38,044 bases of DNA, taken from Chloroflexota bacterium. GTDB lineage: Bacteria > Chloroflexota > Anaerolineae > J102. This document shows, piece by piece, positions 929-10,757 of this stretch. The notes beneath the pieces were generated by a model. It had not been told where the DNA came from and searched no databases. It worked only from the letters and a program-made list of their open reading frames with translations. The first letter of the stretch is position 1. Every line of letters begins with the position of its first letter. Location of the stretch: assembly GCA_013151415.1 (NCBI GenBank), contig JAADII010000158.1:1-38044 (forward strand), read 5' to 3'. Position numbers and translations under genes: made by a program.

Positions 929-2998
929 ATGTTCGTTTGCACTCATTCTGAAGCAATGAAAACCTTTGATGCGTTATCGCCGACTGAACCTGTCAGCCGG
1001 GAAACAAAGTCTGTTGATGTGCTGCTTGTTTCGATGCCTTTTGCACCGTTGCTTCAGCCCTCAATCGGGCTGAGCTTGCTTAAAGCTGGGCTGACAAGAC
1101 TGGATGTAGCGAGCGAAGTGCTTTATTTGACGCTTCGTTTTGCCGAAGAGATTGGCATTGAAGCGTATACCAAAATTTCCAATGCATATCAGGGCACAAT
1201 CTTGGGTGAATGGATATTTGCGCATACACTGTTTCAACAGACCCATGAAGATGTGCAAAGCTATATTGAACAGGTTATATTGGGAGACCTGGATATATAT
1301 CGCTATATGAAATCTGCAAACGAGGATTTTGTCGAGGAGGTGTTGCGAGTCCGTGAGAAAGCAGAAGCGTTTTTAGATCTATGTCTAGAGATTATATCGG
1401 CCTATCGCTTTAGCATTATCGGGTTCACAAGTGTATTTCATCAACATGTGGCTTCGTTGAGTCTGGCAAAACGGATAAAGAAACGTTTTCCTGAGCGTTA
1501 CATTGTGTTTGGCGGAGCGAATTGTGAGGGGGTGATGGGCGTCGAGACATTGCAACAATTCAAGTTCGTAGATGCGGTTGTATCGGGTGAGGGCGATTTG
1601 GTCTTTCCACAATTGGTAGAGGAGGCGTTGGCGGGTCGGTGGCATAATGTTGGTGATTTGGAAGGGGTTTATGTGCGGGACAGTAAGCGTATTTTCGGCG
1701 TCAATGGAGGGTATCCCAACGCGCCCAAGCCTCAGTCGCTCGACGCACTCCCATATCCTGACTATAGCGACTATTTCCTCCAATATGAGGAAGCAGCGTT
1801 TGATAAACCGGAGAAAGGCGGAAGAATCTTGTTTGAGACTTCACGAGGCTGTTGGTGGGGTGACAAGCATCACTGCACTTTTTGCGGGCTGAATGGCTCA
1901 TCATTGACCTATCGCTCCAAGTCGCCCGATCGAGCATTGCGGGAATTGGAATCCTTGTTAGAGAAGTACCCTGGCTGGAGCATTTCGGTGGTGGATAATA
2001 TTCTCGACATGGGGTATTTCAACAACTTTATTCCAGAGTTGGCGTCGAGAAATCGTGATATCGAATTATTTTATGAAGTGAAAGCCAATTTACAAAAACA
2101 TCATGTCCGATTGTTGAAAGAAGCGGGCATCACCAGCATCCAACCGGGGATTGAAAGCCTATCGACGCCGGTATTGCGATTGATGAGAAAGGGCGTCAGC
2201 GCTTTGCAAAATATCCAATTATTGAAATGGTGCAAAGAATTTGGCGTGAGACCTTATTGGAATATTCTTTGGGGATTTCCCGGCGAGCCCGAGGAAGAAT
2301 ATCGCCGTATGACAGAACTTGTGCCCTTGATAACCCACCTACCCCCGCCCAAAAATGTAGGGCCTATGCACTTGCAACGCTTTAGTCCCAACTTCGACTA
2401 TGCAGACGCTTTTGGTTTCAAAGATGTACAGCCTTTCCCGGCGTATTACCATGTTTATGAAGGCCTCCCCAAAGAAGCCATCGCCCACATGGCCTATTAT
2501 TTTACATTTTCTTACAAAGAAAAACGAGATGTTGATGCGTACACCGCTCCTTTTGCCCAAGCGCTTGAAGAGTGGCAAGAAGATTACGTCAATTGTGATC
2601 TTTTCAGTGTGGATAAAGGTGACGTGTTGATTGTGTGTGACCTTCGTTTGCGCTCGCAGCAGCCACTCATTTATTTGAGAGGAGTGGCCAAAGAAGTGTA
2701 TCAGGCATGTGATAAAATCCACTCTATTAGACAGTTGTATAAAATCGGCCAATATGAGCCGGGCCAAATCGAACCGATTCTTGAGGGCCTTGTAAGTCTA
2801 GGTTTGATGTTGGAGGAAAATGGAAAGTATCTGAGCTTAGCCATACCCCTTGGGGTGTATTCCTTATCCAAACCTATTCTTCAAAGATTTCGTGAAATAC
2901 TGTCCAGTACGGCTCGAAAACTAGATGGTAAATATATTTTGAAGGTTGAGACGCCAGATATGCCGCTAAAAGACTCGACGCTTTCTTTAATTCGGTAA
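929..2998 (+). CDS. cobalamin-binding radical SAM RiPP maturase (RiPP maturation radical SAM protein 1 type)
   Basis: This 689-residue enzyme has a B12-binding-like Rossmann domain (about residues 30-290, with strands such as VDVLLVSMPF and YIVFGGANCEG), a radical SAM core and a C-terminal extension of about 130 residues. The [4Fe-4S] ligands are C308, C316 and C319 in the sequence CWWGDKHHCTFCG, a CX7CX2C variant rather than the classical CX3CX2C. As I recall it, this is the hallmark of the family called RiPP maturation radical SAM protein 1, whose members modify ribosomal peptides, often by C-methylation. The precursor peptide gene follows 69 bases downstream and a peptidase gene after that, which supports a RiPP role. 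The start is uncertain: the ATG at 929 lacks a ribosome binding site, and the ATG at 956 (MKTFDAL) is equally plausible and would give 680 residues. Confidence 0.93.
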   Translation: MFVCTHSEAMKTFDALSPTEPVSRETKSVDVLLVSMPFAPLLQPSIGLSLLKAGLTRLDVASEVLYLTLRFAEEIGIEAYTKISNAYQGTILGEWIFAHTLFQQTHEDVQSYIEQVILGDLDIYRYMKSANEDFVEEVLRVREKAEAFLDLCLEIISAYRFSIIGFTSVFHQHVASLSLAKRIKKRFPERYIVFGGANCEGVMGVETLQQFKFVDAVVSGEGDLVFPQLVEEALAGRWHNVGDLEGVYVRDSKRIFGVNGGYPNAPKPQSLDALPYPDYSDYFLQYEEAAFDKPEKGGRILFETSRGCWWGDKHHCTFCGLNGSSLTYRSKSPDRALRELESLLEKYPGWSISVVDNILDMGYFNNFIPELASRNRDIELFYEVKANLQKHHVRLLKEAGITSIQPGIESLSTPVLRLMRKGVSALQNIQLLKWCKEFGVRPYWNILWGFPGEPEEEYRRMTELVPLITHLPPPKNVGPMHLQRFSPNFDYADAFGFKDVQPFPAYYHVYEGLPKEAIAHMAYYFTFSYKEKRDVDAYTAPFAQALEEWQEDYVNCDLFSVDKGDVLIVCDLRLRSQQPLIYLRGVAKEVYQACDKIHSIRQLYKIGQYEPGQIEPILEGLVSLGLMLEENGKYLSLAIPLGVYSLSKPILQRFREILSSTARKLDGKYILKVETPDMPLKDSTLSLIR

Positions 2999-3067
2999 AA
3001 CTGCGCTAGCGCCGTTTAACGTTTGTTCCTTTTTCAACCCTCGCTCAACAACAGGAGGTAATGTGCA

Positions 3068-3259
3068 ATGGCTGAGAATCGCTCTCCCGAACAAAAGACG
3101 TTGACCGCCGATCAATTCACTTTTGATGAAGATGGCAATCTTGTCATCAAAGATGATGAAATCGTTGAGGCCTTGCGCTCGGCCCCGGACGTAGCCGGCT
3201 CCGCCAGCCCCGAAGAAGCGGGCGTCAGCGTCTCCGTCACCATTGGCGTAAGCATCTGA
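3068..3259 (+). CDS. RiPP precursor peptide
   Basis: A 63-residue acidic peptide is preceded by a near-perfect Shine-Dalgarno (AGGAGG at 3053-3058), the strongest in this block, as expected for a substrate made in excess. Residues 1-40 look like a leader (LTADQFTFDEDGNLVIKDD, then EIVEALRS). A flexible Ala/Ser/Gly/Pro/Glu linker follows (residues about 41-51). The last residues, VSVSVTIGVSI, are almost entirely beta-branched Val/Ile/Thr alternating with Ser. There is no Cys, so it is not a lanthipeptide or sactipeptide core. Its position between the radical SAM enzyme and an M16 peptidase marks it as the substrate of both. The core boundary (perhaps after EEAG) and the modification are inferred; methylation at the unactivated Val/Ile/Thr carbons would suit a cobalamin radical SAM enzyme. 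Confidence 0.85.
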   Translation: MAENRSPEQKTLTADQFTFDEDGNLVIKDDEIVEALRSAPDVAGSASPEEAGVSVSVTIGVSI

Positions 3260-3267
3260 GCGACACG

Positions 3268-3314
3268 ATGTGGCGAACCGGTGGACTGATTGCCAAACCA
3301 TCGGTTCGCCACAT
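3268..3314 (+). promoter_or_regulatory. large stem-loop between precursor and peptidase genes
   Basis: A perfect 13-base inverted repeat (ATGTGGCGAACCG at 3268-3280 with its complement at 3302-3314) is extended by four more pairs including one G-U, enclosing a 13-base loop. There is no U-tract after it, so it is a poor rho-independent terminator. It could be an mRNA-stabilising or attenuating structure that raises precursor output over the downstream genes, as seen in bacteriocin operons. Confidence 0.7.
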
Positions 3315-3341
3315 ACGGCTATATAGAACGAGAAACTCCTC

Positions 3342-4592
3342 ATGACAAGAGAAACCATCGTTCGCACGGTATTAAGTAATTGTTTACAAATCAAATTCAA
3401 ACGCTCTGAACAGCGAACCGTCAATATTGGTCTATTTATCAATCATGGCTCTAAGGATGAGGATGTGCATAAAAACGGATTGGCGCATTATATTGAGCAT
3501 GTTTTGTATAACCCCGCCCATATGGCGCCGAAAACGCGAGAGCTATATGAGGATTTGCTTAGCGTAGGGTTGAGCTATGAAGCTTACACCAGTAAGGAGT
3601 TCACCAGGATGGTGGTCACTTGTTTGCCTGAACAAGTGGAGCCGGCCTTGCAGATGCTGAGTCTGCTAATCCAGCGGCCCTCGGTGACAGTTGAGGCTGT
3701 TGAGCATGAACGCCCTATCATTTTGCATGAACACGCCATGCGTTTTTCATCCAGTTCGGTGTTAGGCGAATTGCTCGATAATGCATTTTGGGGAAATCGT
3801 TCTTTAGGTCTTTTTGTTATTGGCCGTAAGGAAAATATCCAACGTTTCACGGTAGACGAAATTAAGGAGCGTATTGAGGCATATTACATACCCGAACGCG
3901 TCCATTTAGTTGTTTTAGGGCCTATTGATGTGGAGCCCCTCAACAGGCTGGCCGAGCGTTATTTTGGTGAGTGGAATGGCCCCACTCGTTCTTTTCATGA
4001 TGTCGCCATTGTTACCGAACCGCGTATCTTGAGTGTTCCCACCAAGTCTCCGCGCGTTGATCTGCTGATTGGGTTTCTTGGCGTGCCGGCCTCCTCGGAG
4101 GAGCGTCCGGCTATTGAGCTTTTGGCAGACATCCTGGGCGGAGGACTCAAGTCGAGATTATTTGTCGAGCTTCGCGAGAAACGTAAATTGGCCTATTTGG
4201 TCCACGCCTATGCGCTTAGTTATATCTCAGGAGGCTATTTAGCTATCAAATTGAATTGTGATATCGCCCAACTCGCAGACGTCTTTCGCGTGATTCAAGA
4301 TGAAATCGAACATATTAAACGCGATGGCGTGACAGAAGCCGAGTTGGCTAGAGTCAAGGCGACGCGCAAAACCGCAATTTTACGCGTTCTTGAGAATAGT
4401 CATCAACATATTCTGCTTATGGGTCAGCACTCCATCCAAAATGAGGAATTTTTCGTCGATTTGGTCATCAACGGTGTTGAATCTGTTCAAGTTCAGGATG
4501 TCCAGAATGCGGCTATCCGGGTTTTCAATCCTGACAACATGGCAGTCGCCGGATTTGGCCCGCAGGAACAAGATATCCTCGCACTTATTTGA
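3342..4592 (+). CDS. M16-family zinc metallopeptidase, candidate RiPP leader protease
   Basis: This 416-residue protein is of the M16B (PqqF / mitochondrial-processing-peptidase-like) family. The inverted zinc motif HXXEH is present as H49-Y-I-E52-H53, and the third ligand E130 lies 77 residues later in IILHEHAM, so the site looks complete. The C-terminal half carries the conserved substrate-binding stretch SRLFVELREKRKLAYLV and a downstream Tyr. There is no signal peptide, so it is expected to act in the cytoplasm. M16 enzymes usually work as pairs of two such halves, and only one is encoded here, so it would be a homodimer or use a partner elsewhere. The gene sits directly after the precursor and its stem-loop, and cleavage of the leader is the likely job (inference). 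Confidence 0.92.
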   Translation: MTRETIVRTVLSNCLQIKFKRSEQRTVNIGLFINHGSKDEDVHKNGLAHYIEHVLYNPAHMAPKTRELYEDLLSVGLSYEAYTSKEFTRMVVTCLPEQVEPALQMLSLLIQRPSVTVEAVEHERPIILHEHAMRFSSSSVLGELLDNAFWGNRSLGLFVIGRKENIQRFTVDEIKERIEAYYIPERVHLVVLGPIDVEPLNRLAERYFGEWNGPTRSFHDVAIVTEPRILSVPTKSPRVDLLIGFLGVPASSEERPAIELLADILGGGLKSRLFVELREKRKLAYLVHAYALSYISGGYLAIKLNCDIAQLADVFRVIQDEIEHIKRDGVTEAELARVKATRKTAILRVLENSHQHILLMGQHSIQNEEFFVDLVINGVESVQVQDVQNAAIRVFNPDNMAVAGFGPQEQDILALI

Positions 4593-4616
4593 ACTGCTCA
4601 CCAGAGGATTGTGATC

Positions 4617-5192
4617 ATGAGTAACTCCGTCTTACTTGCTAAGCCTATGATTCAGCACGCTTCTGCAGTACAAAAACATATCGATCCTCTTAAAAATGGC
4701 GGGCTGGATATTTTGAGCGCTCTCATTAATAGCCCGAGCACCACTAAACAGTTAGCTATTCGTTTTGGGCTTCCTCGCGCTCGCGTGCAGTTTGCCATCG
4801 ATGGTCTGCTAGAAAATGGTTTTGTATACGTTTACAAAGAGATTCAAGAAGGAGACGCGCTCGAAATATATTACGCAGCGGCTGCACAAGATATCGAACT
4901 AACTCTCAACGAGCGGTCTCCGCGACAGGCGCGCATCCTAGGCGCACAGATTATTCTTGACTCTTTACACACCAATTTCATCAAGGCCTTGTCGAACGCG
5001 CCGGAAGAGCACAAGCATGCATTCATAGCTACTTTGCGATTAGTACAGTGCCGCATGAATTCTGAAAAAGCCGCCCGTTTTGTTGCCGAGTTGGAAGATT
5101 TGGTGGCACGTTTCAACGAAGCTGAAGACTTAGACGCAGAGGACGAATTCGCATTGTGTGTTGCATTGTACCCCATTTTTGAGCTATCTTAA
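4617..5192 (+). CDS. winged-helix DNA-binding-like protein, unknown function
   Basis: This is a 191-residue protein. Residues about 30-85 form a predicted ArsR/MarR-like winged helix: DILSALINSPSTTKQLAIRF, then the recognition helix in LPRARVQFAIDGLLENGFV, then a hairpin with KEIQEGDALEIYYAAA. The C-terminal 100 residues are helical and acidic and I do not recognise them. The ATG at 4617 is chosen because AGAGG at 4603-4607 lies nine bases upstream; a GTG six bases earlier is possible. It follows the peptidase by 24 bases and is co-oriented, so it probably belongs to the RiPP operon as a local regulator or an accessory leader-binding protein. The winged-helix fold is also used by RiPP recognition elements, so a substrate-docking role cannot be excluded. 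Confidence 0.75.
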   Translation: MSNSVLLAKPMIQHASAVQKHIDPLKNGGLDILSALINSPSTTKQLAIRFGLPRARVQFAIDGLLENGFVYVYKEIQEGDALEIYYAAAAQDIELTLNERSPRQARILGAQIILDSLHTNFIKALSNAPEEHKHAFIATLRLVQCRMNSEKAARFVAELEDLVARFNEAEDLDAEDEFALCVALYPIFELS

Positions 5193-5346
5193 ATGGATTT
5201 CCTAAAAGAAATGTTTCACCGTTGAGATCACTGAGAGCGTTACAGTAAGGGTTGGGTCAACAAATCTAGCTTCTGCCCACCCGGCGTGTTCTGAAGTGAA
5301 CCTTTTGCAGTGAATCCTTAAATGCACTGAAACAAGGAGGAATGAG

Positions 5347-6582
5347 ATGGCAGCAGCGCCACAACACAACAAGTTATGGAATCGCAATTTCGCCGTGCTT
5401 TGGGCCGGTCAAACGCAATCCTATTTGGGCGACGCGTTTTTGAACATTGGTCTGATGTGGTTCGTGCTGGAATTGACCGGTTCCGCGGCCGCGGCGGCCA
5501 CTGTGCTGGTTCTTGGCGGATTGCCTAAATTGTTAGGACCATTGACTGGGATTCTTGTCGATCGCGCAGATAAGAAAACCCTTATGATAGCAAGCGATGT
5601 TTTACGCGGCGCGTTGCTCATCTTGATGTATTTGCTTTTTCTCTGGGACAAGCTTCAAGTCTGGCATTTGTATGCCTTAATTGTGCTTCTGAGCGCCCTT
5701 TCCATCATTTACGGCCCATCACTTCGGGTGTTGTTGCCAAGACTAGTGCCCAACGAGAGTTTGCCCGCGGCCAATTCCGCTTTGCAGGCGAGTTTGCAGG
5801 TGTCCACCATCGTTGGCGCCAGTTTGGCCGGCGTGGCGCTGGTGGCTTTTGGAGCGCCCATGGCGTTGTTGATCGATGGGATTTCGTTCTTGGTGGCGGC
5901 CGTCGCTATTGCATTGGTGCGACTTCCTCAGAAGAAAGAAGCGTCGTCGAAAACCCTACAACCCTCAGAGATCTGGCGCGACCTGCTTGATGGACTACGA
6001 TACATTTTGACAAGTCGAGAAGTCCTGGTGCTGACCGCTCTCGCATTCATCATCAATTTGGTTCTTAGTCCGGTGAACGTCATCTTCCCGGTGTTTTCCA
6101 AAGATGTGTTAGGCGCCGGCGTTGCTGGTTTTGGTTTGCTGGCCTCCACCATTGCCATTGGTTTGTTTTTGGGCAATATTGTTGTAGGCTCCATCGGCGA
6201 CCGACTGCATTACACGCGCTCCATCCTTACCGGATTAGCCATCATGTGCTTTGGACTGGTCGGGCTTGGTTTTTCCCTCTCCCTATTGACCGCGCTTCTG
6301 TTCACCGCTTTGCTCGGTTCGGGCGTTCCGTTCATCCAGGTTGCCCTGGTCACGAGATTGCAGAGAGCGGTCCCCCCGATGTTGCAAGGCCGCGTTTTTT
6401 CGACCTTGGAGGCCGTGGTCACTTTGGCTTTGCCCATTGCCGCCGGATTGGCCGGCCGCGCTTTGATGACCTACGCGGTTTCGTCCATCTTCTATGTCGC
6501 GGCTGCGGGCATCTTCCTCGTCGCAGTTGCATGGACGGGTTTCTCGGCCAAACACTATCAGCCCGATATGCAACCTTCTTGA
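5347..6582 (+). CDS. MFS transporter, candidate peptide/drug exporter
   Basis: This 411-residue protein has about 12 hydrophobic segments and the MFS motif A loop in GILVDRADKKTLM. It resembles the MFS proteins annotated as macrolide, enterobactin or multidrug exporters (first helix NRNFAVLWAGQTQSYLGDAF). AAGGAGG at 5334-5340 sets the start at ATG 5347; an ATG at 5342 is in another frame. A 154-base gap separates it from the winged-helix gene and I see no convincing promoter there. Export of the mature RiPP or of the pheromone, or self-resistance, is the likely role from context; substrate cannot be read from the sequence. Confidence 0.92.
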   Translation: MAAAPQHNKLWNRNFAVLWAGQTQSYLGDAFLNIGLMWFVLELTGSAAAAATVLVLGGLPKLLGPLTGILVDRADKKTLMIASDVLRGALLILMYLLFLWDKLQVWHLYALIVLLSALSIIYGPSLRVLLPRLVPNESLPAANSALQASLQVSTIVGASLAGVALVAFGAPMALLIDGISFLVAAVAIALVRLPQKKEASSKTLQPSEIWRDLLDGLRYILTSREVLVLTALAFIINLVLSPVNVIFPVFSKDVLGAGVAGFGLLASTIAIGLFLGNIVVGSIGDRLHYTRSILTGLAIMCFGLVGLGFSLSLLTALLFTALLGSGVPFIQVALVTRLQRAVPPMLQGRVFSTLEAVVTLALPIAAGLAGRALMTYAVSSIFYVAAAGIFLVAVAWTGFSAKHYQPDMQPS

Positions 6583-6607: not shown

Positions 6608-6979
6608 ATGACGGTTCGTTTTTTGCTCGTCGATGATCATCTCCCTTCCCAAAATGCGTTCGATGAGATGATCAACAACCATCTGAGTTGGCAAGTCATC
6701 GGCAAGGCGCAAGACGGTGAGCAGGCCATTCGGAATGCCAGACGCTTGCGACCGGATGTGATTCTCATGGATGTGGCCATGCCTGAAGTCAACGGCATTC
6801 AGGCTGCCAAACGCATCAAAGAGCATTTGCCGGAAATTCGTATCATTCTTTACACCGCCTACAATACACAGTTCATCTCGCAACGAGCTCTCATGTCTGG
6901 TGCGGATGCATTCTTCGATAAAAGCGAGCTCGATCAGACTGCGCTCAAAGAATTGCTAGAGCGCTGGTTTCCCTCCTGA
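6608..6979 (+). CDS. stand-alone receiver-domain response regulator
   Basis: This 123-residue protein consists of a receiver domain alone: acidic pair D9-D10, phosphoacceptor D55 (LMDVAMPEV), the Thr-Ala switch in LYTAYNTQF and the Lys in FFDKSE. It ends with no output domain, so it must act by protein contact, compete for phosphate or serve in a relay. It starts 26 bases after the exporter and precedes the Trp-containing peptide. Its sequence start MTVRFLLVDDH matches the N-terminus of NarL-type receivers, so it could derive from a ComA-like regulator that lost its helix-turn-helix. Confidence 0.93.
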   Translation: MTVRFLLVDDHLPSQNAFDEMINNHLSWQVIGKAQDGEQAIRNARRLRPDVILMDVAMPEVNGIQAAKRIKEHLPEIRIILYTAYNTQFISQRALMSGADAFFDKSELDQTALKELLERWFPS

Positions 6980-7106: not shown

Positions 7107-7367
7107 ATGAAAGACCTATCCACAGTCATCTACAAATTGGTGCACGATCCCCAGTTTCGGCATCAGCTGCAAAACGATCTTCACGTATCGCTGTCGCAGC
7201 ACGACATTGTTTTGAACGATGCTGAATTAGAGGCCATTCTTGAGGTTCTGGAGATGCTTCAAGAGGGCGACGAAGTCGAGCTGAACCAGGCTTTGAAATA
7301 TTCGGCTCCTACGGATATTTTCTGGCCTGCTATCAAGCCCGCTCACCCCGTTTTGCGTTCTGTTTGA
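7107..7367 (+). CDS. ComX-like pre-pheromone peptide (candidate prenylated signal)
   Basis: This is an 86-residue peptide. AAGGAG at 7090-7095 supports the ATG at 7107; in-frame ATGs at 7077 and 7002 have no such support. The N-terminal part (MKDLSTVIYKLVHDPQF, then ...DAELEAILEVLEML) is a helical leader of a style common to modified peptides. By eye it recalls Bacillus ComX, which also begins M-x-D-L and has a Pro about a dozen residues in. The only Trp, W73, sits in PTDIFWPAIKP, 13 residues from the C-terminus. ComX is prenylated on a single C-terminal Trp by ComQ, and here the next gene is a ComQ-like isoprenyl-synthase homologue whose ATG overlaps this stop codon. Function is inferred from this architecture; a RiPP leader for another modification is the alternative. 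Confidence 0.75.
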   Translation: MKDLSTVIYKLVHDPQFRHQLQNDLHVSLSQHDIVLNDAELEAILEVLEMLQEGDEVELNQALKYSAPTDIFWPAIKPAHPVLRSV

Positions 7368-8359
7368 TGGACCCGGCTTTACACAGCGTCCTACAATATC
7401 TTGATAACATCATTGCTTCAGCGCCGGTTGAGCCGAATTACGCCCAGTGTCTTTCTCAGGTTCACCACAGGGTGGCTGAAGCCGATGCCAGGGTGCTTAC
7501 TCTGCCCCTGAAAGCCTGTGAGGCCGCGGGCGCCGAGAATGCTCGCGCCATACCTGTTGCCGCCGCCTGGCATGGTTTGCGCACCGCGGCGCGGATTCTT
7601 GACGATGTGGAGGATGGGCATCACCGGGCCATGGATGGAGCGCCGCACCCAGCGGCATATCTTATCAATTTGGCGACCGGATGCATCGCTGTCGCTAATC
7701 TGGCCCTGAATCATGCAGCCTCTAAGTTGACCCCTGCTCAACGTTTAGCGTTGCTTTGGCGTTTCAACCAGACCATGGCGGTTATGGCCGGAGCGCAACA
7801 TCTGGATCTTGCAGAGAGCGGCGTCGCGACCGCAGACTCGTATTGGCGACATGTTCGCGAGAAGTCGGGCGCTTTTTTGGGCCTTGCTGTTCAAGGCGGG
7901 GCGCTATGCGCAATGGACGATGAAAAAGCCTTGGCTCGTTATTACGAATTTGGTTATAATGTGGGCGTAGCTTTGCAGCTGGTAAACGATTTTAATGGTT
8001 TTTTCACTGAAGAGCCTCTCTCCGACTTGGCTCTTGGAAAGCGTACATTGCCCATCTTTTTCATCGAAGAACAGGCGCCCTCATCGGTGAGCGGCTCGAT
8101 TCGCGTGTTGCTTGCTCGCGCGCATCATGATAGCGACGCTCGCGCTCGTATCCGACGAATAGCGCGAAGATGGGGCGCCGATGTATATATGGTGGCCGAA
8201 ATTTTGCGCCACCACGCTCAAGCGCGCCGCTCTCTTCGACCTTCGGACGATCCACACCATGTATTGAGGCGTTGGTCGAATGAAATATTAAAGATGCATA
8301 GGAGTTCTCTTGCGCATCAAATCGTCCTTCGTTCGACACTTCCCCTTCCTTCTTCTTGA
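7367..8359 (+). CDS. ComQ-like isoprenyl transferase (polyprenyl synthetase family)
   Basis: This 330-residue protein has the all-helical trans-isoprenyl diphosphate synthase fold. The first aspartate motif is intact as D79-D-V-E-D83, followed by the family's GAQHLDLAES and YWRHVREKSGAFLGLA segments. The second motif is degenerate: N207-D208-F-N-G instead of DDxxD, although the following DLALGKRTLP stretch is conserved. A weakened second motif is what one expects of ComQ, which transfers a prenyl group to a peptide rather than elongating isoprenoids. Its ATG shares one base with the stop of the Trp peptide (TGATG), so the two are translationally coupled, and its end overlaps the kinase gene by 50 bases. 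An ordinary geranylgeranyl diphosphate synthase is the alternative, but synteny argues against it. Confidence 0.85.
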   Translation: MDPALHSVLQYLDNIIASAPVEPNYAQCLSQVHHRVAEADARVLTLPLKACEAAGAENARAIPVAAAWHGLRTAARILDDVEDGHHRAMDGAPHPAAYLINLATGCIAVANLALNHAASKLTPAQRLALLWRFNQTMAVMAGAQHLDLAESGVATADSYWRHVREKSGAFLGLAVQGGALCAMDDEKALARYYEFGYNVGVALQLVNDFNGFFTEEPLSDLALGKRTLPIFFIEEQAPSSVSGSIRVLLARAHHDSDARARIRRIARRWGADVYMVAEILRHHAQARRSLRPSDDPHHVLRRWSNEILKMHRSSLAHQIVLRSTLPLPSS

Positions 8360-10757
8360 TATTGGCGTTTTACTTTTCATCGGTTACGCCGTATTTTTTC
8401 GCGTTTGGTTTCCTTACCCCGGCGTAGAAATCGAACCGCGCACCGGGGTGGTTCGGGGGGTGGCGAATGACGGCTTTTTTGCTGAATTGGGTTGGTTGTC
8501 GGGGGATCAAGCGCTCGCGGTTGGTGAAACGCCTTGGGTTAAAGCCGCGAGTTTGTATCACGGGGTGCGCGTTGGCGAAACCAACTCGTGGACCTTGCGT
8601 CGCGATGGGGAAGTGCTGGTGGTGAGCGCCCTGGCGCCCAAGCCCTTGTGGCAAGAAAGCGCTCGAAATCTGGCTCCTTTATTGGTCGCGTTCTTTTATT
8701 GGGCTGTGGCCACAATTTTGTGGTTGTTCAGCCCTGGGCATAAGATCATCCGGCTGTTTTTTCTGCTCGACCAACTTGTGGCGTTGGTGCTTGCCAGCGG
8801 AAGTTTGGCCGTCTATACGGTGCGCTGGGTGGATCCGCTTTATTATTTGGGTTACATCTTTGTGGCTCCGGTCACGCTTCATTTCTTTTCTCTCTACCCG
8901 TTGCGTCGCGATGCGCGCTACGTGAAGCGCCTTGTGCAAATCGCTTATATTGCAGCTGTTGTTCTAAGCATTCAATATGTGCTTGGGTGGGCGCTGGGCC
9001 AACGACCTTATCTCCTTTCAGACGCCTTATGGTCGCGTTTGCGCGCGTTTTTCTTTGTTGCGACCATGCTCTTGGCCTTTGGTCTGTTTGTGTGGCGATG
9101 GTTCGACGCGCCGCCTCGGGTGCGGCAGCGGCGCCGCGTCATCGCCGCGGGCGTGGCGGTGAGCATTTTGCCCATGCTCATGTTCTACTTTCTCCCATTA
9201 TTGCTCGGCGCCTCTCCGCTCGTTTCGCCTGAATGGCTCTTCCTTTCGCTCATCTTTCTCCCACTTGCCGTGGCTTATGCCTTACACAGCGGTGAATTGG
9301 GCGCGGTGGACTGGTTTCTCAACCGAACTCTGGCTCATGTTTTGCTCTTCTGCCTGGTGGCCGCGCTTTATGCAGGCCTTTTTTGGTTTCTCAACGCGGT
9401 GCTTCCCCAGAGTCCAAACCTTGTCTTGCCCATCGCCACGATTTCTGCGGTTTTATTGGCTGTGTTTTTCACGCCTTTACATCGCTTTTTGCAGCGCCAG
9501 GTGGACCGGCTATTTTACGGCGGATGGTATGACTATCACTCGGTTGTGGAGCAAACCGGAAATCGGCTGAGACAGGCCAAACACCCGCAAGAGTTGGCCG
9601 AAGTCTTGCTGGAAAACATCACCAAAAGCATGCATTTGCATTGCGCTTATTTGCTTCTCCCCACCCCCGCATCGAGCGACGAGGCCCAGCTTTTTGCTCT
9701 TGCACCGTCCGATTGCAAGCTTGCGCGTTTTTCCGGCGCGTCTTTTTCGTTGAGCAGCCCTCTTTTTCAGGCTTTGAGCCATTTCGATGCCCCGGTCGAC
9801 AACCTCACGCTGCGCGGTTGGACGCCCATCACCGCCCTCAATGAGCGCGAGCGCGCCTTGCTGCGCCATGCTCATGCTCGTTTGTGGCTGCCGGTTCATT
9901 TTTCCGATGAGGTTGCATCAGGAACCCGGCTCGCCGCGCTTATCTTGGGGCCAAAACTCGACGGTGAACCCTTCACCGATGAAGACAAAAACATCCTCAA
10001 AACCGTAGCCCGGCAAACCGCATTGATCATCGAAAATCTGCAACTATTGAGCCGCTTGCAACAACGAGAGCGCGAGCTCGAACACCTTTACAAGGACCTT
10101 ACATACACCCGTGAGGAAGAGCGCAAACGCATTGCTCGCGATTTGCACGACAACATCATTCAAAACATGCACATTGTTTACCGCCATATCAAGAACCATC
10201 GTCAGCTTCCTCCCGAAGTGGTTGACCTGCGTTTGCAGGAATCGGCTCAGTGGTTGAAGCAGACCATGAACGATGTGCGCCGCATCTGTGAAGATCTACG
10301 TCCCGCGGCTTTGGATGTGTTGGGTTTGGCCGACGCGATCCGCGCCCATGCCGAGCAATTCGCTCGCCATACCGGGATCGCTGTAGACGTGGTCATCAGC
10401 GGCAATGAACAGGCCCCATTGTCTTCGGAGACCGAAGACATGCTATTTCGCATTTTGCAAGAAGCGCTGTGGAACGTGGAAAAACATGCCCGCGCCCGGC
10501 AAGTGTGCATTCGTATGTCATTTCCCTCTCGAGACGCTCCTTCACCCGATGGACTCATCCATCTAAGCATTCAAGATGATGGCCAGGGTTTTCAGTCCAT
10601 TCCCACCCTCGAAGAATTGCTGGCGCGCAAGACATACGGCATTTTGAACATGTACGAGCGCGCCTCCATCATTGGGGGCCGACTGCGCCTTAGCTCACAG
10701 CCGGGGCGAGGAGTCCACATCGAAATCACCGCGCCGCTCAATCCTCCCTTGGTCTGA
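8310..10757 (+). CDS. ComP-like membrane histidine kinase (PDZ-like sensor, polytopic membrane domain, GAF, HisKA_3, HATPase)
   Basis: This 815-residue kinase starts at TTG 8310, set by AGGAG five bases upstream; no ATG fits. Order: TM1 (10-28); an extracytoplasmic PDZ-like segment (about 30-108, with GVVRGVANDGFFAELGWLSGD); about nine further membrane helices to residue 395; a GAF-like domain (410-580); a short coiled coil; HisKA_3 with phosphoacceptor H613 in RIARDLHDNIIQN; and HATPase_c with N-box (ALWNVEKHA), DDGQGF and YGILNMYERA. This is the layout of Bacillus ComP, which has a PDZ-like loop between its first two helices and reads prenylated ComX. It overlaps the ComQ-like gene by 50 bases. 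HisKA_3 kinases pair with NarL/LuxR regulators, matching the one at 111-764. Confidence 0.93.
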   Translation: MRIKSSFVRHFPFLLLDIGVLLFIGYAVFFRVWFPYPGVEIEPRTGVVRGVANDGFFAELGWLSGDQALAVGETPWVKAASLYHGVRVGETNSWTLRRDGEVLVVSALAPKPLWQESARNLAPLLVAFFYWAVATILWLFSPGHKIIRLFFLLDQLVALVLASGSLAVYTVRWVDPLYYLGYIFVAPVTLHFFSLYPLRRDARYVKRLVQIAYIAAVVLSIQYVLGWALGQRPYLLSDALWSRLRAFFFVATMLLAFGLFVWRWFDAPPRVRQRRRVIAAGVAVSILPMLMFYFLPLLLGASPLVSPEWLFLSLIFLPLAVAYALHSGELGAVDWFLNRTLAHVLLFCLVAALYAGLFWFLNAVLPQSPNLVLPIATISAVLLAVFFTPLHRFLQRQVDRLFYGGWYDYHSVVEQTGNRLRQAKHPQELAEVLLENITKSMHLHCAYLLLPTPASSDEAQLFALAPSDCKLARFSGASFSLSSPLFQALSHFDAPVDNLTLRGWTPITALNERERALLRHAHARLWLPVHFSDEVASGTRLAALILGPKLDGEPFTDEDKNILKTVARQTALIIENLQLLSRLQQRERELEHLYKDLTYTREEERKRIARDLHDNIIQNMHIVYRHIKNHRQLPPEVVDLRLQESAQWLKQTMNDVRRICEDLRPAALDVLGLADAIRAHAEQFARHTGIAVDVVISGNEQAPLSSETEDMLFRILQEALWNVEKHARARQVCIRMSFPSRDAPSPDGLIHLSIQDDGQGFQSIPTLEELLARKTYGILNMYERASIIGGRLRLSSQPGRGVHIEITAPLNPPLV

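Follow-up and report, generated by a model that had tools for sequence, protein, structure and literature searches.

Three overlapping genes in the window, by which we mean the whole 38,044-nucleotide stretch of Chloroflexota DNA analysed here, are best read as a prenyl-peptide signalling operon of the ComQXPA/PalXQP type. We assign a probability of about 0.75 to this reading, which comprises a precursor peptide (X), a ComQ-like enzyme (Q), a sensor histidine kinase (P), in most loci also a response regulator (A), and the adjoining RiPP operon as the target.

All features discussed for the window lie on the forward strand. As outlined in a preliminary description of the locus, the genes follow one another in the order X-Q-P, each overlapping the next (7107–7367, 7367–8359 and 8310–10757). 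X starts at ATG 7107, preceded by AAGGAG, and stops at 7365–7367; it encodes a small peptide of 86 residues whose one Trp, W73, does lie in the C-terminal region. The start codon of Q (ATG 7367) uses the last A of the X stop codon in a TGATG overlap, the stop codon of Q ends at 8359, and the product is a synthase homologue (Pfam polyprenyl_synt, 2.9e-15). P starts at TTG 8310 with GGAG before it, overlaps Q by 50 bases and ends at 10757. A lone receiver domain is encoded just 5' of X (6608–6979), and a REC-LuxR (NarL-type) response regulator gene, A, was found where it had been placed, at the far end of the locus (111–764).

The arrangement recurs in 29 loci, and chance can therefore be dismissed as its origin. 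Upstream of Q, 26 of the 29 loci have an X with a Trp close to its end, P stands beside Q in 27 of the 28 that can be evaluated (L013 ends inside Q; L146 is without P, and in L152 P lies upstream), and 25 of the 29 have a REC-LuxR gene. Synteny thus bears out the supposition that X, Q and P are conserved together. Two relatives from the same family (L013 and L014) have a receiver-X-Q(-P) cassette in which the Trp is kept and the cores otherwise differ. Five loci (L017–L020 and L027) are compact A-X-Q-P loci, in which the LuxR gene adjoins X or P and no exporter, peptidase or immunity gene was found between A, X, Q and P.

Q groups with ComQ and not with the chain-elongating GGPP and FPP synthases. 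In an earlier tree of 31 synthases, Q and ComQ fell together with a separation of 100/100; in the present tree, 29 Q and 4 ComQ sequences (L034, L035, L038 and L039) stand apart from 16 chain-elongating synthases with support of 100/99. The reference ComQ, ComX and ComP sequences were drawn from plasmid records, among which the window Q, used as query, led to ComQ genes adjoining annotated comX. Chain-elongating synthases keep GGKxxRP, a His before the FARM, RR after the FARM and the loop that follows the SARM, whereas ComQ and the aligned Q lack all three motifs and have a six-residue deletion in this loop. Altogether, GGKxxRP, HDDxxD, RR after the FARM and the GKPxG loop of the chain-elongating synthases are absent from Q, and a chain-elongating role was rejected on the evidence of tree and motifs. 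Genome G000 carries two further synthase genes, so that Q is not needed for elongation. Structure prediction also agreed with what had been proposed: the AlphaFold2 model of the window Q (pLDDT 88) has a trans-IDS fold and matches Ord1, a Trp prenyltransferase, as well. This fold and the polyprenyl_synt match are what can be said for Q as an ordinary prenyl diphosphate or terpene synthase, with its adjacency to X and P merely incidental; lacking the IPP-binding motifs, grouping with ComQ and lying in a conserved X-Q-P operon, Q is most improbably an enzyme of that kind. We retain it as a predicted Trp prenyltransferase.

The aspartate-rich motifs of the window Q are DDVED (FARM) and NDFNG (pseudo-SARM), and they fit the criterion of a DDxxD FARM combined with NDxxx or GDxxx. 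ComQ needs NDxxx at the pseudo-SARM, where mutagenesis disfavours DDxxD (PMC5331326). Among the relatives, L014 has NDLNG, and DDxxD is found in L013 and in the Q of tandem-core loci. DDxxD at this site does not exclude Trp prenylation, because the SARM of PalQ from Paenibacillus alvei is intact but dispensable, and the enzyme is active (PMC10853753). The SARM rule was rejected as a family-wide test, since the DDxxD relatives also have Trp precursors and PalQ tolerates DDxxD.

Two further observations concern Q-like enzymes. The FARM is degenerate in four loci (DSVQD in L078, DGVQD in L083, NDAAD in L092 and DSLED in L129), with X and P mostly intact; these enzymes may have a different substrate or activity. 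An unannotated ComQ-like gene with NDFQD at the SARM is located on a 1.08-Mb Priestia megaterium plasmid (L033, 3983–4990), and no comX was seen beside it.

P was described as a polytopic histidine kinase with a PDZ-like loop after its first helix, and both its Pfam domains (HisKA_3, 4.3e-11; HATPase_c, 1.2e-6) and the AlphaFold2 model of the sensor agree with this. The model predicts one helix, a beta-rich domain (residues 39–108) and then more membrane helices, and in the PDB the beta domain is matched best by the PDZ domains of DegS/DegQ/HtrA (E ~0.006, probability 1.00). A profile of five P proteins was compared with a profile of three ComP proteins using hhalign. The sensors aligned collinearly from end to end (322 columns, E 1.4e-16), and the PDZ part (8.9e-10) and the membrane part (4.6e-8) also aligned separately, against 0.07–0.42 for the controls (reversed ComP, an MFS transporter and an ABC permease). 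Judged by these profiles, the whole P sensor, PDZ loop and membrane helices alike, is homologous to that of ComP, and the likeness in architecture is confirmed.

The comparison of X with ComX could be upheld only in part. The Trp is conserved, as expected: it is found in 27/27 X peptides read, with the last Trp 2 to 19 residues from the C-terminus. In eight relatives it is the 2nd to 7th residue from the end, and the C-termini are WG or WF in four loci (L079, L080, L082 and L130) and WVP in L088. The leader and the exact Trp position are not those of ComX. The window X has a leader of about residues 1–50 and a core with the single W73 (...PTDIFWPAIKPAHPVLRSV), which is the 14th residue from the C-terminus. 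It is thus neither the last residue, as in PalX, nor within about 10 residues of the end, as in ComX. In Pfam, the window X scores 13.9 bits against ComX (PF05952), below the cut-off of 25, and ComX membership was rejected on this basis. The score against NCBIfam Os1348/NHLP is 29.7 bits (cut-off 40), and the relative in L079 exceeds this cut-off with 46.1 bits. A match of the X leader profile to four ComX sequences (E 0.0008, probability 24%) is only suggestive. On these scores the leader appears to be of the NHLP/Os1348 type, nearer in kind to that of PalX (Paenibacillus alvei) than to ComX. The known ComQ and PalQ favour a Trp at or close to the peptide end. The offset of W73 counts against the proposed reading, and a C-terminal cut or another specificity is needed.

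X candidates had first been listed with a Trp filter, and a Trp-blind control was therefore run. Under the blind rule, the nearest upstream ATG open reading frame was taken and scored for a Trp in its last 20 residues. This was the case for 22 of 28 Q loci, compared with 12 of 67 housekeeping synthase genes (Fisher p 3e-8). The rule chose the wrong frame in L018, L019 and L020, and it found no open reading frame in three loci.

Tandem multi-core precursors, which are new here, were found in six loci, with 3 to at least 11 Trp cores each: three in L018 and in L090 (GPQEAWAVSP), four in L020 and in L027, five in L019, and at least 11 in L017, where the count is a lower bound with cores on both sides of an assembly gap. 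The Q next to the L090 precursor (Q_L151 in the tree) falls outside the clade of the other five tandem-locus Q, and on this account the tandem cores probably had two independent origins. Cores are less alike than leaders in 6 of 7 pairs, as in pherotypes.

Many core copies would also suit bulk production. Prenylated X might then be an antimicrobial or surface-active RiPP, which P would sense for self-protection or autoregulation. The apparent NHLP-type RiPP leader and the place of the window cassette next to an exporter and a RiPP cluster fit this idea as well, which we nevertheless consider unlikely: the compact A-X-Q-P loci contain no interposed gene for an exporter, a peptidase or immunity, P has a ComP-type sensor, and the cores vary in a pherotype-like manner. 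We therefore continue with the signalling operon.

The presumed target lies between the LuxR gene and the cassette (929–6582). It encodes a B12-binding radical SAM RiPP maturation C-methyltransferase (929–2998; TIGR03975, 6.8e-200), a 63-residue candidate RiPP precursor without family match that was inferred from its position (3068–3259; MAENRSPEQ...VSVTIGVSI), an M16 peptidase (3342–4592), a winged-helix regulator-like protein with weak HTH matches (4611–5192) and an MFS exporter (5347–6582). Between the LuxR gene and the cassette of L013/L014 lies another cluster, in which a radical SAM protein, an M50-like membrane protein, an ABC transporter and short MTYIDL... peptides were read from the translations. 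The peptides at the head of these clusters, MTYIDL(S/T)DLEAIEE...CAGG(W/A)CGL... (L013, ~3755–3880; L014, 18067–18291), have no NCBIfam match and are candidate precursors of another RiPP.

A palindrome, GTWCAG-N8/9-CTGTAC, follows the LuxR gene and precedes the first RiPP gene in the window, L013 and L014. In the window it reads GTTCAG-N9-CTGTAC (787–807) and precedes, by about ten bases, a -35/-10 pair (TTGTAG 817–822, 17 bases, TATATT 840–845) that is the putative RiPP operon promoter (817–845), recognised only by its promoter-like consensus. Each of the three genomes has exactly one exact match, at the RiPP promoter, and this single copy before the RiPP operon is likewise new. The motif was derived from these same three loci, and its weight therefore rests on the conserved place and the lack of other copies. 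We predict 787–807 to be the binding site of the LuxR regulator.

It could be argued that X and Q give a prenylated peptide, but that P answers some other cue and the LuxR regulator serves the RiPP cluster independently. P and the LuxR gene are 7.5 kb apart in the window, with a lone receiver domain in between (such a domain is also found upstream of X in L013, L014, L080 and L082), and there are no phosphotransfer data. The LuxR gene lies beside X or P in the compact loci, however, the P sensor is homologous to ComP, and the RiPP clusters flanked by LuxR gene and cassette differ between the window and L013/L014. These points make the argument quite improbable in our view, and we keep to a regulator that is presumed to be paired with P.

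The mechanism of the proposed signalling operon is an inference at each step from prenylation to RiPP gene regulation, and no product or signal of the operon has been observed. X would be made as leader plus core. With the leader bound, Q would use a prenyl diphosphate to attach a geranyl- or farnesyl-type group to the W73 indole. After excision and export, the modified core would be bound outside the cell by the PDZ/membrane sensor of P. P would then phosphorylate the LuxR-type regulator and not the lone receiver, a pairing that is itself inferred, and the regulator, on its palindrome, would activate the adjoining radical-SAM RiPP operon. Of the divergent X-Q-P version in Chloroflexota that the preliminary description had postulated, the gene order, the conservation and the kinship of Q and P thus stand; X falls short of ComX, and prenylation and signalling remain inferred only. 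None of the three outcomes named in advance as refuting that description came about, and its interpretation is supported.

Because X fails the ComX tests, the operon was not classed as ComQXPA. It shares with ComQXPA of Bacillus and relatives the grouping of Q with ComQ, the same motif losses and NDxxx, a P sensor homologous to ComP, a REC-LuxR regulator and a Trp in a variable core. In contrast, the order there is Q-X-P-A, whereas it is X-Q-P here with the regulator at the other end of the locus, and the window X is longer, with an apparently NHLP-type leader and a Trp further from the end, and with tandem cores in relatives. PalXQP of P. alvei likewise has three genes; they encode a precursor with an NHLP-type leader, which X appears to share, and a conserved core Trp, a trans-IDS-like Trp prenyltransferase (predicted for Q) and a histidine kinase (PMC10853753). 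It differs in phylum and in the C-terminal position of the PalX Trp, as opposed to the 14th residue from the end in the window X, and no tandem cores like those of the Chloroflexota relatives have been described. Cyanobactin prenyltransferases such as KgpF also prenylate the Trp of a ribosomal peptide, as inferred for Q, but they are alpha/beta barrels (PMC10853753) and do not have the trans-IDS fold of Q.

In a 2014 census, comQXPA-like loci were confined to Firmicutes (PMC4008528), and a KEGG-based study assigned only the HK-RR pair of this pathway to Chloroflexi (PMC8895600). A 2026 review treats ComQ, PalQ and ChrPC as trans-IDS-like Trp prenyltransferases without mention of Chloroflexi (PMC13290415). 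In the literature searched, which did not include subscription papers, no system of this kind is reported for the phylum. We lean slightly towards the broader view that Anaerolineae-type Chloroflexota hold a separate and diverse branch of prenyl-Trp signalling, in which NHLP leaders, repeated cores that free many identical prenylated signals per chain (with at least two origins), several parallel cassettes per genome and direct control of radical-SAM RiPP clusters would be combined. If the signalling reading is true, prenyl-peptide quorum sensing extends beyond Firmicutes to a phylum with hardly known cell-cell signalling, and ComX-like pheromones are linked to the NHLP class of RiPP leaders. 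Nearly 30 natural pairs of enzyme and precursor, six with repeated cores, would also become available for studies of Trp choice by trans-IDS-like enzymes, and the reading would predict which signal switches on silent RiPP clusters in mostly uncultured bacteria.

Profile searches of 396 sampled genomes of the class detected Q in 23, with calls at 182 bits or more where the best housekeeping synthase reached about 177 at most; outside the class, no convincing Q was obtained in a Chloroflexota sample of 400. When 84,980 GTDB genomes were scanned with the Q alignment, a search limited by its short patterns, 11 loci were obtained, almost all of them in Chloroflexota MAGs. L027, a contig of 3.3 kb, comes from a MAG labelled Deltaproteobacteria and may be misbinned. 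In a Terriglobia (Acidobacteria) MAG, a truncated Q follows an X gene (L031, 1971–2900); this is either what is left of a cassette passed between phyla or a case of misbinning. One genome, G021, contains at least four distinct Q cassettes (L077, L128, L129 and L130), each accompanied by a P of its own and possibly forming parallel signalling channels.
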